Translations under genes and position numbers: made by a program
In this document: one piece after another, positions 19,108 through 34,456 of the stretch
Numbering within the stretch: position 1 is the first letter of the stretch
How the letters are laid out: each line of letters opens with the position of its first letter
The notes under the pieces: generated by a model
Database searches by the model: none
The model's input: the letters and a program-made list of their open reading frames with translations, nothing else
What the model was told of the DNA's origin: nothing
Origin: Aquidulcibacter sp.
GTDB taxonomy: Bacteria > Pseudomonadota > Alphaproteobacteria > Caulobacterales > Aquidulcibacteraceae
Direction: 5' to 3'
DNA: 34,615 nt
Assembly (NCBI GenBank): GCA_027532555.1
Contig: JAPZTJ010000043.1
Coordinates: 1-34,615, forward strand

Positions 19108-20499
19108 TTAGCGCTTCATGCGGATGACTTCGTCGAGCATGTCATCAGCCGTTGTGATGATCTTCGAGGAAGCACTATAAGCGCGCTGAATGACGATCAT
19201 GGAGGAAAATTCCTGAGCCAAATCAACGCTTGAGGACTCGAGGGTGGAGGAGGCGATAATGCCCGCACCACCGAGCCCTGGATCTTTTAGGCTGAATTGG
19301 CCAGAATCTGCGGTCGGACGATAGACGCCGCCACGGTCTACCATCAACCCGTCCGGGTTAACAAAGGTCGCGACGGGTAGCTTAAAGATCTTCTTGGAAA
19401 CCCCATTGTTGAAGATCGCCGAGATAAAACCTTCCTTGTCGATTTCAACGCCGCTCACATCGCCAAAGAGCGAGCCATCGGTGGTCGTTGAGGTGATTGC
19501 GGTTGGGCTGTCGAATTGGCTGATGCCACCGGCACCGCTGATTTGACCAAGATCGAGCGTAAAGGTTTGAGCGGCGAGGCCGGTTGAAGCGGCCCAATTG
19601 GCTGCGCCCGCCGCGGGCGCACCGCCTGCTGCTGCGCCAAGATTAAAACCAGCTAAAAGAGCGGGCGTGGTTGCCGCGGTGTCGAGTCTGCCGCTTGGCG
19701 TGAAGGCTAAAGTACCTGTTGCAATCTGCCCGTTCACCAGAGGCGCACCAGTCGTGACGCTGCTCGCAGGTGATGCGTAAATTTCCGTGATCCACTGATT
19801 GGCAGTCGCACTCTTTAGCATCGCCACGTTAAACGTGCGGAGGCCGCCGAGGCTGTCATAGATTTGAAACGACCAATTGGCATCTGGGGTCACACTGCCC
19901 GAGGCCATATTGTTAGTCGCCGCATTATAGGTGCCGCCGGAGACAGCTGTGCTGATCGGGGTTGTTGATCTTAGATTGCCATTGATTTTGGCTGTCGTAG
20001 ACGGGGCCGCCGTCCCCGAGATCGAGCTGATGTTGACAGTTTCAAGCAAGTTTAAGTCACTCGGGCTGGTGGTAACGTTGCCGGTGGAATCGACACGCCA
20101 GCCCTGAAGGAAATAACCTGCCTGGTTGACCAAATTTCCCTGATCATTGGCTGCAAATGTACCCACTCGCGTAAATGCGACATTGGTCGATGCAGCACCT
20201 GCTGTTTCCAAGGGTGAAACCGCAAAAAAGCCTTGGCCTGAAATTGCTAAGTCGGTGACGGTGCCAGTCGCATTCAAGTTACCTTGTGAGCGCACCAATT
20301 GCCGCGTCTGGGCTGAAACCCCACCTGCATTATAAGTGGAGCTTTTACTTTGTGGATTGACCAGTCGGGTGAAGTCGGTGCGGTTACGCTTAAAGGCCGT
20401 CGTGTTCACATTGGCGATATTGTCAGAGACAACAGCCATGGCACTGGAATTGGCGATAAGGGACGAAACGCCCGCCAGCATTGCGTTATTGATCGACAT
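19108..20499 (-). CDS. flgE: Flagellar hook protein FlgE
   Basis: FlgE subunits form the curved hook that joins rod to filament. The 463-residue protein has the N-terminal rod/hook domain (MSINNAMLAGVSSLIANSSAMAVVSDNIANVNTTAFKRNRTDF), the FlgE-specific LAISGQGFFAVS region, a variable Ala/Gly-rich middle, and the C-terminal helix (SSTLESSSVDLAQEFSSMIVIQRAYSASSKIITTADDMLDEVIRMKR). It is the last gene of fliK-flgD-flgE, 127 bases after flgD. Its ribosome-binding site (AGGAG, 20506-20510) lies in one arm of a perfect inverted repeat, suggesting translational control. Confidence 0.96.
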   Translation of the reverse strand: MSINNAMLAGVSSLIANSSAMAVVSDNIANVNTTAFKRNRTDFTRLVNPQSKSSTYNAGGVSAQTRQLVRSQGNLNATGTVTDLAISGQGFFAVSPLETAGAASTNVAFTRVGTFAANDQGNLVNQAGYFLQGWRVDSTGNVTTSPSDLNLLETVNISSISGTAAPSTTAKINGNLRSTTPISTAVSGGTYNAATNNMASGSVTPDANWSFQIYDSLGGLRTFNVAMLKSATANQWITEIYASPASSVTTGAPLVNGQIATGTLAFTPSGRLDTAATTPALLAGFNLGAAAGGAPAAGAANWAASTGLAAQTFTLDLGQISGAGGISQFDSPTAITSTTTDGSLFGDVSGVEIDKEGFISAIFNNGVSKKIFKLPVATFVNPDGLMVDRGGVYRPTADSGQFSLKDPGLGGAGIIASSTLESSSVDLAQEFSSMIVIQRAYSASSKIITTADDMLDEVIRMKR

Positions 20500-20500
20500 T

Positions 20501-20538
20501 GAATGCTCCTGATCGTGTTTTTATTGTTAGGAGCATTC
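20501..20538 (-). promoter_or_regulatory. Inverted repeat sequestering the flgE ribosome-binding site
   Basis: In the flgE leader the arm GAATGCTCCT (minus strand, 20538-20529) is the perfect complement of AGGAGCATTC (20510-20501), separated by an 18-base A-rich loop. The second arm contains the AGGAG ribosome-binding site and ends one base before the ATG. Folded, the hairpin would hide the site. No T-run follows, so a terminator is unlikely. The role as a translational switch is inferred. Confidence 0.7.
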
Positions 20539-20626
20539 TGCCCAACCACTTAAGCCCAGATTTTAGGGACGGAGTGTTGATTTTTAGTTGATTTTTTTCC
20601 TAATCATTGAGATTTAAGTCAAAATA

Positions 20627-21313
20627 TCAATTCGCCTGCAGTCCTATCTTTACGATTGATGACAAGGGGAGGGCAGCGCCACCGATGGTGACAGTTGGTG
20701 TGTTCCCGGATAGGTCGACACCGGTAATGACGCCCTTTTGGCGAACGCTCCCGGTGATTGGACGTTCATCTGCACCTTGTGCATTGAGTTCGAGACGATA
20801 GGTGCCGGCAGGTGCGGCTTTGCCCGATTGATCCTTGCCGTCCCAGGTGAAAGTTTTTTCGCCTGTTGAGGTCTCGCCCGATTTGGTCGCGATCGTCCGA
20901 CCTTGGGAGTCGACAATTTTTAACGTCGTGCTGGCTGACGACCGAGGCAACTCGTAGCGCCAGGTAGCTTCCCCGCCACTCGCCAGACCAGCCAAAGCAG
21001 ATGTTGCTGTGGCTTCTGTGCCCAAATAGGCGACAGCCGTGGCACCCGCGCTCAGTTTGGTGGTTTCGGTTAGAGACGACAGCAGGTCATTGGTCTTCAA
21101 TTGCTGCTCGACGCCGGAGAATTGCACCAATTGATTGGTGAAGTCTTTGGTGTCTAGGGGCGAAAGCGGATCTTGGTTTTTCAACTGCGCCGTCAGAAGC
21201 GTCAAAAAGGTCTCGAAATTGTTTGCAAGCGACGACTTCGCGGTCGTGGCTGCTTTGGCGGCGGTAGCAGAGGCTGCTGTGGGTGCGACCGTCGCATTGG
21301 TAACTGTTGCCAT
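20627..21313 (-). CDS. flgD: Flagellar hook-capping (scaffold) protein FlgD
   Basis: FlgD caps the growing hook and is replaced by FlgK when the hook is complete. The 228-residue protein has the N-terminal signature LANNFETFLTLLTAQLKNQDPLSPLDTKDFTNQLVQFSGVEQQLKTN, then a FlgD Ig-like/tudor region with ATWRYELPRSSASTTLKIVDSQGRTI, FTWDGKDQSGKAAPAGTYRLELNAQ and a final VTGVDLSGNTPTVTIGG-like segment (here ITGVDL...). It begins 17 bases after the fliK stop. Length and motifs are typical. Confidence 0.96.
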   Translation of the reverse strand: MATVTNATVAPTAASATAAKAATTAKSSLANNFETFLTLLTAQLKNQDPLSPLDTKDFTNQLVQFSGVEQQLKTNDLLSSLTETTKLSAGATAVAYLGTEATATSALAGLASGGEATWRYELPRSSASTTLKIVDSQGRTIATKSGETSTGEKTFTWDGKDQSGKAAPAGTYRLELNAQGADERPITGSVRQKGVITGVDLSGNTPTVTIGGAALPLSSIVKIGLQAN

Positions 21314-21330: not shown

Positions 21331-22689
21331 TTAGGCGGTTATGGCGATGCGGGCGCGTTGCCAGCGTTCGACAGGACCAGAGAGGTGGGTGGAAAGCGGG
21401 TCTGCCTGCTCAGGCTTGGCCGCCTCGGATGTTTCATAGCTATCGAGGCTGTCTTTTAGGCGCGCACTTTGCTGCTGATTGGTATCGCGATTTTGCTGCG
21501 AGCTGCTTTGATCATTCATCGAGAATGACAGGCCATTTTCTTCCAATTCAAGCCCGGCATCTTGCAAGGCGCGGGTCAGTTCGCGTGCGGACAAGGCCAG
21601 GTCTTTGAGGGCTTCAGGCCGATCCGTGCTAACCACAGCGCGCACCTTCTTGTCTGTGCCCACCGTTAAGCGCACATCGACCCGACCTAATTCTGGTGGA
21701 TCGAGGCGGAGCGTGAATTCTTTCAACCCATTTGAAATGCGGCGCATCATGGCTGCAGCAAGCAGTGGGATGGTGTGGGGTTGGACGAGGGTCGGCTTTG
21801 GCGTTGTGTCCGCACTTGGACTCGCTGCTCCATCGATGCTTGCAGAGCCTGCAGCATCAGCGGCGCCGTTGGAACCGGCCAGCAGGCCGCCGGCATCGGT
21901 CGCCGCAATTTTAGTTTCCTCGACTTTGGTGGCAGCCTTTGCAAGATTGGGCAGAATCCCTGCTGCGGCCGCGGCCGTCGCTTGCTGTGTGGGTGTGGGA
22001 ACCGAAACAGTATTCTGCGCACTGTTCGCCATTGCATCGTCGGATGCCATCAAGACAGTGTTATTGGCAAACCATTCAGTCGAGCCATTTGGTTTGAGAC
22101 CCTTTGCCTCTGCAGATTGCGCTGCTACCATCCGCTCTGCACTTGGACCTTGCGGGTTGGTAGCAAGCGCCAAGTCCAAAGCGGGACCACTCTTGGCGGT
22201 CATCTCATCAGCCGTTGATGGATCAATTGGCTGTGGGCTAGGTTGTGTTGCTGACGCGTTTGCTGTCGCGACAAGCTGTGTCAATTGACTGCCTTCGGTC
22301 ACGGGCTCTTGCGTTTGCCCCAAGGCAGCGAGGCCCGACAATAGAGTCTGAGACGCGGCAGTTTGTCCTTTGAGCCCGAGCGCTAGGGCAGTTGCGGCTT
22401 GGTCCTCAGTTGGGCTTCCGGTGCTTTGGCCAATCTCTTTAGACGGAGCCATGAGCTCGCTAGCGTTAAGGCCCGCTTTAAAAGTTGCATCACCCGCCGC
22501 ATCGGCTGATTCAGACGCTAATGTTGGAGGCTCTTGCGGACTGGGCGGTTGAACGAAGCCAATCAACGTAGCGGCAAAGCTCAGACCCGTTGGCTCGCTC
22601 ATTTCCTGGTCTGCCGGAACAGACGGCTTCGCACGCCGCGACGGCCGTGCTTCTGCAATGCTGTCCATCATGCGACCAACCGATTCCAT
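21331..22689 (-). CDS. fliK: Flagellar hook-length control protein FliK
   Basis: FliK measures hook length and switches export from hook to filament proteins. The long Ala/Ser/Thr/Pro-rich N-terminal region is typically variable. The C-terminal Flg_hook domain is clear: LRLDPPELGRVDVRLTVGTDKKVRAVVSTDRPEALKDLALSARELTRALQDAGLELEENGLSFSM, then a Gln/Asn-rich tail. The reading frame is open to 22812, but a near-perfect sigma-54 promoter at 22752-22769 lies inside that extension and predicts transcription from about 22742. I therefore choose the ATG at 22689 (452 residues), preceded by AAGG; ATG 22728 is an alternative with a very short leader and no ribosome-binding site. First gene of fliK-flgD-flgE. 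Confidence 0.9.
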   Translation of the reverse strand: MESVGRMMDSIAEARPSRRAKPSVPADQEMSEPTGLSFAATLIGFVQPPSPQEPPTLASESADAAGDATFKAGLNASELMAPSKEIGQSTGSPTEDQAATALALGLKGQTAASQTLLSGLAALGQTQEPVTEGSQLTQLVATANASATQPSPQPIDPSTADEMTAKSGPALDLALATNPQGPSAERMVAAQSAEAKGLKPNGSTEWFANNTVLMASDDAMANSAQNTVSVPTPTQQATAAAAAGILPNLAKAATKVEETKIAATDAGGLLAGSNGAADAAGSASIDGAASPSADTTPKPTLVQPHTIPLLAAAMMRRISNGLKEFTLRLDPPELGRVDVRLTVGTDKKVRAVVSTDRPEALKDLALSARELTRALQDAGLELEENGLSFSMNDQSSSQQNRDTNQQQSARLKDSLDSYETSEAAKPEQADPLSTHLSGPVERWQRARIAITA

Positions 22690-22751
22690 ATGCCTTGAAC
22701 CCCCGCTTCCCTGTTTGTCACACGTCATGCTGCGACTTCGAGAAGTAAGAG

Positions 22752-22769
22752 TAGCAAGCGACGTGCCAT
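22752..22769 (-). promoter_or_regulatory. Sigma-54 promoter for fliK-flgD-flgE
   Basis: On the minus strand the bases read TGGCACG-N4-TTGCT, matching the sigma-54 consensus TGGCACG-N4-TTGC with exact GG-N10-GC spacing. The predicted transcription start is near 22742. This places the promoter inside the longest possible fliK reading frame and so decides the fliK start. Confidence 0.88.
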
Positions 22770-22968
22770 GTTTGTTTTGGTATAATATGTTGTTTTTATT
22801 GAAATTTACCAAGGGCTAATCGAGGTAAATGGCGGTCAAATCAGCTCTCTAGCGGCATAGTTTGCCGGGTAGAAGGCCAATCCTGCCGCACGATCAGAAA
22901 TCGTTCATGGCCTGACTTTGACGCGGTTTCTAACCATCTCACGAGCGCCGCTAAGGCCTCAGAATGTT

Positions 22969-23187: not shown

Positions 23188-25367
23188 ATGTCGCTAAATT
23201 CGATCATGAACATCGCTACGAGTGGCCTGTATGCCAGCCAAAATGCCATTCGCACGGTGACGCAAAACGTCTCCAACGTGAATACCCCGGGCTATGTTCG
23301 CCTCGAGCACAATCAGAACGCGCGCGAAATTGGCGGCAAAGGTCAGGGTGTTGATACTGCCTTAGTTACTCGCGCGGCTGACCGCTTCTTGGCTGCCGCT
23401 TCATTGGCTGCGTCGAGCGGCGCGGGCAGTGCAGCAGGTCGCTCGGGTTATTTGGAAAATGTCCAAGCCGCCTTTGGTGATCCAACCAGCGAATCCTCAA
23501 TTTTCGCTGCACTGAACCGTGCTTTGGGTGCCTTTGAGACGGGGGTCCTAAACCCCGGTTCAATCTCAGCCCGTCGCGGGGCCGTTGCTGAGCTGCAGAG
23601 CTTTCTCGCTCAGGTCAATACGGTTGGCCGAACCATCGAGACAGCACGCGCGGATGCAGACCAACGGGTAGCGGATCAGGTTCAGAGAGTGAATACGCTC
23701 GGGTAGCGGATCAGGTTCAGAGAGTGAATACGCTGTTGAAGGATATCTCGGCAGGCAACTCCGACATTCTGCGCGCCAATGCCATCGGCGATTCAACTGG
23801 GGCACAGCAACGCCAAGCCGACATGATCCAGGAATTGTCGCAATATATCGACATCAAAGTGGTTCAACGCCCCGATGGTTCAAATGAAGTACGCACCAGC
23901 AATGGCGTCTTGCTGGCAGGGTTCAACCCCGCCACCTTGAACTTCAAAGCCTCTGGCATTGGCGCAACCTCGTTTGATCGGATTACCATTACCTTTGGAA
24001 GCGATCCAACCGAACGGGAATTTGAACCGAGCATTCAAAGCGGGTCATTACGCGGTCTCTTAGATGTACGCGATCAAGATTTGGCTAAAATCGCCTACGG
24101 ACTGGGCGAACTGGCAGGCGGTATTGCCGACGCACTGAATGCCGCCCACAGCCAAAATGCAACCTTGCCGCCCTTGGCTGTGGCCAGAGGTAGTGACACC
24201 GGACTTTTGGCGTCCGACAGCTTAAACTTCACAGGTCAAACCAGCATTGGTGTCGTCAATGCGGCAGGCCTCTTGGTCAGCAAGATCGACATTAATTTTA
24301 ACACAGGCGCCATTAGCGTCGATGGGGCTCCCTCAGGTACAACGGGCGCAACCATTGGCTCTTTCGTCGCCGCCCTCAATACCGCGCTCGGTGCCAATGG
24401 CTCGGCAAACTTCACCAATGGGCGGCTGCAATTACAAACCGCCGCTCCAGTACCGGCGACAGCCACTCCCAATGGCTTCGTATTTGATGAACCGACGACC
24501 GGTGGAAGTCAGCGCGGTAATCGCGCCTTCGCGCACTTCTTTGGCCTCAACGATTTGGTCCAGTCCGGCACACCCTTGAACTATGCAACGGGTTTGCGCT
24601 CAACTGATAGCCATGGTTTTATGGCCGGCAGCGTGATGAGCTTGCAAGTGGTCGGGCCAACTGGCGGCATTGCAACCACTAGGAACGTCACCATTCCAGC
24701 AGGCACGATTGGTGACATCATGAATGCCCTGAACGATCCCACAACTGGGGTGGGGCTTTATGGTGGCTTCTCCCTCGACCCCCAAGGTGTCATGAAATGG
24801 ACGCCGGGAACTGGACAAGGCAATCTGCGCTTAGAGATCACGCAAGACATTGGGCCGCGCGGTGGCACAAATCATGGCTTTGCCGCGATTTTTGGTGTCG
24901 CTTCCAAAACCCGCGAAGCGCGCGCTTTGGGCATTGAGGTCAATCCAGCGATTGTCTCGGACCCTTCGAAAATGGGTCTAGCACGGCCTGATCTCTCAGC
25001 TGTCGCACTTGGCGCAGTAGCCGTCGGCCTGGCCGATAGTAGAGGTGCCCAAGCCTTGTTTGATGCGTCACGGGCACCTCTGACCTTCAGTGATGGTCCA
25101 GGCGGGGTTACCCGTTCAATGAAGTTGATGGACTTTGTCTCATCGCTTGGCGGCGATGTCGGGAGACTGGCCGCTGAAGCTACTTCGGATAAGGAAACCG
25201 CTGAGGGGTTTAAGGCTGAGGCTGATGCCCGCCGTGCCAATATCGAAGGCGTCAATCTCGACGAAGAATTGGTCAAACTGACCAGCTTCCAACAAGCCTA
25301 TTCCGCGGCCGCCCGGATGATCCGTGCGGTTGATGAAATGTACGAAACTTTGCTGCAGGCCGTTTGA
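23188..25367 (+). pseudogene. flgK: Flagellar hook-associated protein 1 FlgK, disrupted by a tandem duplication
   Basis: FlgK is the first junction protein between hook and filament. The N-terminus (MSLNSIMNIATSGLYASQNAIRTVTQNVSNVNTPGYVRLEHNQNA) and C-terminus (NLDEELVKLTSFQQAYSAAARMIRAVDEMYETLLQAV) are typical. A perfect 35-bp direct repeat (23665-23699, 23700-23734) shifts the frame and puts a TAG at 23704-23706 after 172 codons. The rest continues in another frame, and an isolated GTG at 23724 could start a 547-residue remnant. Removing one copy restores a 714-residue protein reading DQRVADQVQRVNTLLKDI across the joint. No slippery sequence was seen that would rescue translation. As written, the gene cannot make full-length FlgK. 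Confidence 0.93.
23665..23734 (+). repeat. Perfect 35-bp tandem duplication inside flgK
   Basis: Two adjacent identical 35-base copies, beginning CGGGTAGCGGATC and ending GAATACGCT. Thirty-five is not a multiple of three, so the second copy causes the flgK frameshift. Identity of the copies implies a very recent event or an assembly error. Confidence 0.97.
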
Positions 25368-33419: not shown

Positions 33420-34426
33420 TTAAGAAGCATTCTCGACCGTTAAGAGTCGGGAGAATGCTTCGTTGGGCGCGATCTATCCGAGGCATTTACGCGGTGTTGA
33501 ATTCATCTTGTCGGCGATCGCTTGCAACTGAGCATCTGTGAGGGTCGCAAGATCAGTTTCTCGAGGGAGAAATCGCCGCAACCGGCCATTGGTGTTTTCG
33601 TTAGTGCCTTTTTGCCCCAGGGGGCTTGCGGCTTGCAGAAATAGGCTTCAGTGCCAATCTCGCTCTTCAAATAGCTATAGTTGGCAAACTCACTCCCCCG
33701 ATCAAATGTAATCGAGCGACGCGCTTGAACAGGGTAGGGGCCAAGTTTGGTTTTGATCCCCTGCATGACGCCTTGAGAATGCCGACTAGAGTTTCTGACT
33801 ATGACCAATAACCGGGTTCGACGTTCAACAATTGTTGTCAAGTTGGCGTTTCCAAACTCCTTGCGGAACGGGACCAGATCACATTCCCAGTCGCCCAAAC
33901 GTTGGCGGTCGTTGATCACCGCAGGTCTATAGGCGACTGTATTTGCTTGAGGAATATGAAGGCCGCGCGGCTTACGATCATAGCGCCGCCGACGACGCCA
34001 ACGCCCAGCTGGCAGATGTCGATACAAGTCCAACGCCCGGCCCGCCTTGCCATAAACATAGCGGTAGATAGTCTCATGGCTCACCCGAGATCGCGATGTG
34101 CCACAGACCCTTAGATGACCTGCAATCTGTTCTGGAGACCATGCCGACTTCAATTTCTCAGCCACAAGCGAAGCAAGATCAGGATCAGCGACCAACTTTC
34201 GCAACTTGGTGCGGCGCTGTCGCGCCATTTGATCGGCCGCTTCGCCATAGTAACCGTCAAGCCAAGGATCCATGTCGTCAAACCAGTTTCGTTTGATCTC
34301 GCGGTAGATCGTTGAAATGTGCTTTCCCAGCTTCTCAGCGATTAGCCGCATTGGTGCGTTGGTGCCCAGCATCCTGAAAATCATCTGACGCTCACGCAAA
34401 GTCAGATGCCGATAAGTCCGACCCAT
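33420..34426 (-). pseudogene. IS30-family transposase, frameshifted and with an in-frame stop
   Basis: The N-terminus (MGRTYRHLTLRERQMIFRMLGTNAPMRLIAEKLGKHISTIYREIKRN), SAWSPEQIAGHLR, DWECDLV and ITFDRGSEFANY are IS30-type, giving the first two catalytic Asp. At 33607-33613 (A5-GG on the minus strand) the frame is lost. In the next frame the normal C-terminus continues, GTNENTNGRLRRFLP, then LATLTDAQLQAIADKMNSTPRKCLG, carrying the catalytic Glu. A TAG follows at 33474-33476, and similarity resumes (PNEAF) to a TAA at 33420-33422. The 313-codon open frame ending at 33503 therefore lacks the catalytic Glu. The start is ATG 34426 with GGAGG eight bases upstream; a TTG at 34441 would include that site. 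Confidence 0.9.
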
Positions 34427-34456
34427 CGCGAATTCCTCCAAAATTAGACGAGGGGC

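Follow-up and report, generated by a model that had tools for sequence, protein, structure and literature searches.

How hook synthesis is matched to flagellar assembly before the filament is made is an unsettled question in bacteria. Could the mRNA leader of a hook gene take part in this matching, and what would recognize it? The question is raised by a stretch of 34,615 nucleotides from Aquidulcibacter sp. (hereafter the window; assembly GCA_027532555.1, contig JAPZTJ010000043.1), in which the ribosome-binding site of the hook gene flgE lies within an inverted repeat (Table 1). An earlier note, made from the sequence of the window, had proposed that this repeat is a translational checkpoint on hook synthesis.

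Table 1. Hook-gene locus and parts of its leader, in positions of the window (SD, Shine-Dalgarno)
Feature	Position	Strand	Remark
flgE, flagellar hook protein, 463 aa	19108-20499	-	Pfam FlgE_D2, Flg_bbr_C, Flg_bb_rod; translation
flgD-flgE gap, 127 nt, holding the leader	20500-20626	-	
3' arm AGGAGCATTC, containing the SD	20510-20501	-	
SD, AGGAG	20510-20506	-	6 nt before the flgE ATG
A-rich loop between the arms, 18 nt	20528-20511	-	
5' (anti-SD) arm GAATGCTCCT	20538-20529	-	GCTCC core conserved in two families
HP-B, small hairpin GGGC-AGAAT-GCTC	20531-20543	-	4 pairs including one G-U
flgD, hook cap, upstream gene	20627-21313	-	Pfam FlgD
fliK	21331-22812		Upstream of flgE, as is flgD

Hairpin over the flgE Start Region

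On the minus strand, GAATGCTCCT and AGGAGCATTC form a perfect 10-base inverted repeat that encloses the AGGAG of flgE, and the hairpin of these two arms was the minimum-energy fold of that strand. The full complementarity of the SD-bearing arm to an arm upstream across the loop, as claimed in the earlier note, was confirmed by both the coordinates and the fold. Folded over 51 nt, the strand had a predicted energy of -14.5 kcal/mol (z -3.22; 1 of 200 shuffles was equally good), and over 101 nt one of -26.9 kcal/mol (z -3.37; 0 of 200). Both arms at their native spacing occurred at a single site in the whole genome. When the SD arm (the last 14 nt) was held fixed and the 66 nt upstream were shuffled, the same pairing score was reached by 7 of 3,000 shuffles. 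Moreover, we sampled 154 leaders that have both an ATG and an SD, taken from the window together with 400 kb of relative G004, and only 2 of them showed at least eight contiguous Watson-Crick pairs over the SD. Both belonged to flgE, the window's and that of G004, and none of the remaining 152 sampled leaders had eight such pairs. On these sequence statistics the hairpin by itself is unlikely to be a product of chance, yet it could be one, and conservation is what decides. HP-B overlaps the anti-SD arm, so that HP-B and the long hairpin are mutually exclusive in the window.

No sigma-54-type site was found by pattern in the flgD-flgE gap of the window. A sigma-54-like pattern occurred within 300 nt in 2 of 134 flgE leaders, the window's being neither of them, and this strict pattern occurred within 200 nt in 8 of 28 flagellin leaders. 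With the pattern almost absent before flgE, a sigma-54 promoter in the gap was rejected, and flgE is probably transcribed together with flgD or from a different promoter. A simple scan for intrinsic terminators found no terminator-like site in 20400-20800. The earlier note had also considered that a coupled event might release the hairpin. Coupling to the translation of flgD is unlikely, since the flgD stop codon, 127 nt before flgE in the window and mostly ~70–130 nt before it in the genera bearing the element described below, is, we infer, too far upstream for flgD translation to melt the hairpin.

Conservation of the Leader in Caulobacterales

The closest named relatives by FlgE identity were Aquidulcibacter paucihalophilus TH1-2 (94%), strain UKL13-1 (93%), and Candidatus Phycosocius bacilliformis (84%), and the window falls in the Aquidulcibacter/Phycosocius group. 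We collected 153 flgE leaders from 152 genomes of Caulobacterales, 57 from family f1, 72 from f4, and 24 from f2, f3, and f5 together; genomes in which a contig end cut off the start of FlgE, or in which FlgE gave just a partial or weak match, were left out of this set. The motif searched for was a regular expression, namely a CAGAA or CAAAA loop, the start of an anti-SD arm within two bases of it, and an SD, pairing being no criterion. It was present in 100 of the 129 leaders of the two families f1 and f4 and in none of the 24 leaders of f2, f3, and f5. In the leaders with this element the anti-SD arm directly follows HP-B with its AGAA loop, and in relatives HP-B takes the form xGC-AGAA(N)-GCx. 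The spacing between the two cores ranged from 13 to 49 nt (94 leaders). The five core bases, scored as those directly after the loop against GGAG and the next base, paired with the SD without gaps, by Watson-Crick or G-U pairs, in 91 of 96 motif leaders; four motif leaders of genus g26, which lack the pairing, were excluded from this count and from that of the base after the SD given below, an exclusion that favors the helix reading. Conservation of the pairing in relatives, on which the earlier note had let its idea depend, was thus looked for across the 153 leaders and found.

The regular expression missed one element visible by eye (G103) and caught another (G104) at the wrong hairpin. The element was absent or decayed in genera g24, g26, g33, g34, and g40 and partly in g28 of f4, and also in 7 leaders of f1. 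Two f2 leaders, L089 (G068) and L086 (G096), lack the AGAA motif but carry an anti-SD helix of 7 pairs, which is possibly an independent solution. A model built from 27 leaders recovered the flgE leader of the window's own genome (E 1.2e-7; next best match 0.32). Model R1 misses leaders of the GCGC type and its weaker matches are at chance level, so that its 30 of 101 genomes (E up to 1) are not a prevalence. In a class-wide pattern scan 45 of 385 genomes matched, the reversed control pattern being at least as common as judged by the table, not by a sum; when 30 matched loci were checked by tblastn, our own locus alone preceded flgE. Among the rows listed, this sample included a single f1 genome and none from f4, so that it is uninformative on these two families.

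The helix between the anti-SD arm and the SD (P2) needs a C after the SD. This C was present in 89 of the 95 GGAG-bearing element leaders (96 in all), in 13 of the 38 GGAG-bearing other flgE leaders (57 in all), and in 30 of the 84 GGAG-bearing background leaders (152 in all), all three counts ignoring kinship. The predicted openness of the SD averaged 0.19 in 99 motif leaders, 63% of them being under 0.2, and 0.44 in 87 background leaders, 11% of them being under 0.2.

The P2 core (GCTCC/GGAGC) is nearly invariant in element leaders, and because both of its sides are nearly fixed, it is unable to show covariation. In 27 sequences of the AGAA(N) group, the window included, no core pair changed on both sides and shuffles did equally well or better; six one-sided changes fell in the five core pairs, and pairing was kept in all of them. 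For P2 taken at eight pairs in 28 sequences of g11, g9, and g7, 87.1% of the cells were paired vs 83.0% in shuffles and 34–45% when the structure was slid. Neither this percentage nor the covariation score was reached by any of 500 shuffles, while the 4 pairs changed on both sides were matched by 5 of 500. Sliding the g11-group structure by -1 left the double changes equal (4 pairs, 8 cells) with far fewer paired cells. A permutation at the genus level over all rows, including some misplaced ones, gave a weak excess for pair 6 (76 of 2,000) and, with the misplaced rows included, no significant excess for pairs 6–8 (282 of 2,000) or for the core (1,768 of 2,000).

Many relatives carry another hairpin, HP-A, ~20–30 nt upstream, and its loop resembles that of HP-B. 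In g11 the 8 pairs of HP-A enclose a loop of five bases, e.g., CGAAC or AAAAT. Among g11 and its allies 95.7% of the cells were paired and 33 cells were double changes, each value being reached by 0 of 500 shuffles; 29 of 33 rows were counted, three with another loop length and one misplaced row being dropped. A different stem, with compensatory changes, surrounds CAGAAT in g17, where 93.9% of the cells were paired, and again neither the percentage nor the covariation score was reached by any of 500 shuffles (7 sequences in one register, out of 15 leaders). In the window's genus the HP-A position has no loop of that type. The covarying pairs that the earlier note had suggested seeking in flgD-flgE gaps were therefore found in part: those in the extension of P2 were modest and confined to one group, those of the upstream hairpin were strong, but the core had none. 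Judged by the alignments, an SD-hiding fold in which the anti-SD arm would pair with the SD, the pairing being conserved, is well supported.

Flagellin Leaders and Candidate Readers of the Element

Among all 256 tetraloops, AAAA (24) and AGAA (15) ranked highest in 28 flagellin leaders, no other exceeding 3, and AGAA (60) led in the flgE leaders of f1 and f4, followed by CGAA (19). We defined a signature as a hairpin with an A[A/G]AA or A[A/G]AA(N) loop and a stem of at least 4 pairs. It occurred in 22 of the 28 flagellin leaders of f1 and f4 (shuffled mean 1.1), in 66 of the 129 flgE leaders of these families (3.6), and, with one flgE leader per genus, in 12 of 26 (0.9). In the flgE leaders of f2, f3, and f5 it was present in 1 of 24 (0.6), and in background leaders in 3 of 152 (2.8), i.e., at the shuffled level. 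The flagellin leaders came from 35 loci (5 from our own genome and 30 more, out of 54 matches listed), of which 28 were used and 7 had no start found by the script, four of these also on a second attempt. A second flagellin-family set, with 24 of 30 loci used and a few of these not flagellins, had the signature in 10 of the 24 (shuffled 0.6); nine of the ten were in f3, presumably the Caulobacter family, which had 18 usable loci. Six flagellin leaders (L261, L262, L265, L267, L272, and L281) have an AGAA hairpin a short way ahead of the start codon, such as GTCC-AGAA-GGAC or CACTC-AGAA-GGAGTG, and the SD, which we assigned by eye, falls within its 3' arm or at the border of that arm.

According to PMC3930126, Caulobacter FlbT binds the flagellin 5' UTR and maintains repression until the hook-basal body has been built; this paper and PMC4347634 attribute the control of Caulobacter flagellin 5' UTRs by FlbT to Anderson and Gober (2000). 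The flagellin FljJ is described as the partner of FlbT in repression, which is lifted by FljJ secretion (PMC7591256). A review treats the mechanism of FlbT as unresolved and gives no RNA motif in its accessible portion, which also mentions that FlbT of Brucella was proposed to be an activator (PMC4347634). Our own genome had one match for the FlbT gene (E 2.6e-44), and FlbT was encoded in 98 of the 101 genomes searched. FlbT was also present where the flgE element is absent, so that its distribution does not follow that of the element; its presence in 98 of 101 genomes allows a shared-reader account but does not prove it.

The likeness to FlbT control drawn by the earlier note gained unexpected support from relatives, in that flagellin leaders, the targets of FlbT, carry the hairpin-loop signature of flgE leaders, but it was weak in our own genome, where 1 of 5 flagellin leaders has it and where three flagellin genes, all among the 7 loci without a script-found start, had no clear signature when read by eye. 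Like the FlbT-controlled 5' UTRs of Caulobacter, which are said to be gated to assembly, the flgE leader belongs to a flagellar gene and would act at the leader level, and A[A/G]AA(N)-loop hairpins occur here in both types of leader. Unlike them, it precedes a hook gene, before which sigma-54-like sites are rare, and the anti-SD arm predicted to hide its SD lies farther away, whereas some flagellin leaders bear the SD in or beside the loop hairpin.

Since the loops are common to flgE and flagellin leaders, a shared reader is the simplest account. We consider it, on balance, somewhat probable that a conserved cis-regulatory RNA conceals the SD and thereby gates translation of the hook gene and that its reader is that of the flagellin leaders, most simply FlbT. 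Once P2 is formed, the 30S subunit would be excluded, and flgE translation would be off or low until the leader is acted on. The acting factor would be an RNA-binding protein recognizing the A[A/G]AA-loop hairpins of flagellin leaders, again most simply FlbT, and such a shared reader might put hook and filament synthesis under one post-transcriptional checkpoint. A hook leader with flagellin-like loops would be a concrete candidate recognition element, which makes the question of how hook synthesis is matched to assembly testable in Caulobacterales.

It is possible, though we think it rather doubtful, that the conserved SD-hiding leader is read by something other than FlbT, such as an sRNA, another RNA-binding protein, the hook protein, or its export chaperones, and that flagellin leaders share A[A/G]AA hairpins for another reason, e.g., mRNA stability. 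That FlbT presence does not follow the element is in line with this, as is an sRNA feedback on flgE that was suggested, not shown, for Campylobacter (PMC11187230). However, the signature is common in flagellin leaders and at the shuffled level in the background, and FlbT with its partner FljJ is the protein said, in the portions of the three sources above, to act on flagellin 5' UTRs (PMC3930126, PMC7591256, PMC4347634).

The same protein might also work in opposite directions on the two genes. In the window's genus and several others HP-B would compete in folding with the SD-hiding helix; because of this competition, capture of the AGAA hairpin, which is transcribed first, would open flgE. 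The same protein would close those flagellin leaders whose SD lies in or beside such a hairpin. On completion of the hook-basal body, its withdrawal would close hook translation and open that of the filament. The long helix was favored over HP-B by 3.6 to ~10 kcal/mol in g1, g13, and parts of f4 (g19, g38, and g41). In nine leaders of g1, the window's genus, the mean predicted openness of the SD rose from 0.00 to 0.53 when HP-B was forced; in g11 the HP-B and long-helix states were ~1 kcal/mol apart and openness changed little (0.13 to 0.24). Because these energetics differ by genus, a reader of HP-B could open the hook leader in some genera or leave it closed in others. We hold it unlikely that hook and filament are driven in opposite phases by a single RNA-binding protein. 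Some g11 leaders, such as L051 and L053, have a further strong G+C-rich hairpin within the loop of the SD-hiding helix.

A structured leader that ordinary selection maintains and that just fixes translation at a low rate or protects the mRNA, with no regulation, would fit the absence of covariation from the core in the window's group, but it would hardly explain why genera of two families retain the AGAA loop, an HP-B that abuts the anti-SD arm, and HP-A, which appears to exceed what a fixed rate needs, and we regard it as quite improbable. A hairpin of -14.5 kcal/mol over the SD could also suggest an RNA thermometer of the general RBS-hairpin kind; however, melting needs neither an invariant loop nor an abutting hairpin, the energies vary widely among genera, and apart from a tRNA in the window, neither the window nor 16 relatives' loci matched Rfam above gathering, so that we give this little credence. 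That the repeat is a DNA operator, since dimer-binding sites also look like perfect inverted repeats, or a transcription terminator rather than an RNA switch is scarcely credible, given the variable core spacing, a 3' arm that is the SD, and the lack of a terminator-like site in the region scanned.

Comparison with Known Leaders and Other Features of the Window

At the gathering score, Rfam found nothing in the window except a tRNA, and on the 16 relatives' loci it gave one chance-level match (E 4.6) far below its gathering score. A known RNA family was thus discarded as an explanation, no curated Rfam family reaching threshold on the leader. The earlier note knew of no description of this leader, and we likewise met no hook leader of such kind in Rfam or in the open-access literature searched; subscription papers, including the main FlbT ones, lay outside the search, and the flagellin loop motif may already be described in such papers.

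The flg-Rhizobiales RNA motif (RF01736; Weinberg 2010, PMC2864571), described with three stem-loops in PMC3765529, is likewise alphaproteobacterial, has multiple stem-loops, and is named for flagellar genes. However, its covariance model gave no match on the flgE leaders of the window or of the relatives' loci. With strict filters, it had no match over the cut-off in 142 alphaproteobacterial genomes, our own included, and one weak match elsewhere.

In CsrA-FliW control of flagellin leaders, too, the translation of a flagellar structural gene is blocked at the leader. The GGA motifs bound by CsrA sit in hairpin loops, whereas the flgE leader has its GGA within a stem arm and AGAA as its conserved loop. 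Hook synthesis is also controlled after transcription in Salmonella, where flgE is reportedly, from work of Bonifield in 2000, under posttranscriptional control by the stage of assembly; we know of no conserved SD-hiding hairpin on the Salmonella gene.

A GCGC-AGAA-GCGC hairpin precedes flbD in leaders L178, L351, L352, L355, L356, and L357, its letters being those of HP-B in g11. The GCGCAGAAGCGC hairpin before flbD of G004 looked like a second target but was set aside. Of 9 leaders from the window's genus 6 carry it, the window itself having a changed form instead, and it was found in none of the 11 leaders read from other genera.

Near the contig end there is a transposase-like gene (33503-34441, minus strand) with HTH_38 over the cut-off and rve just below it. 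The flgK gene is interrupted, its two open reading frames lying in different frames (23188-25367, plus strand). Where they meet, ~19–20 bases are directly repeated, 35 bases from start to start; this looks like a short duplication that disrupts the gene, or like an assembly error.
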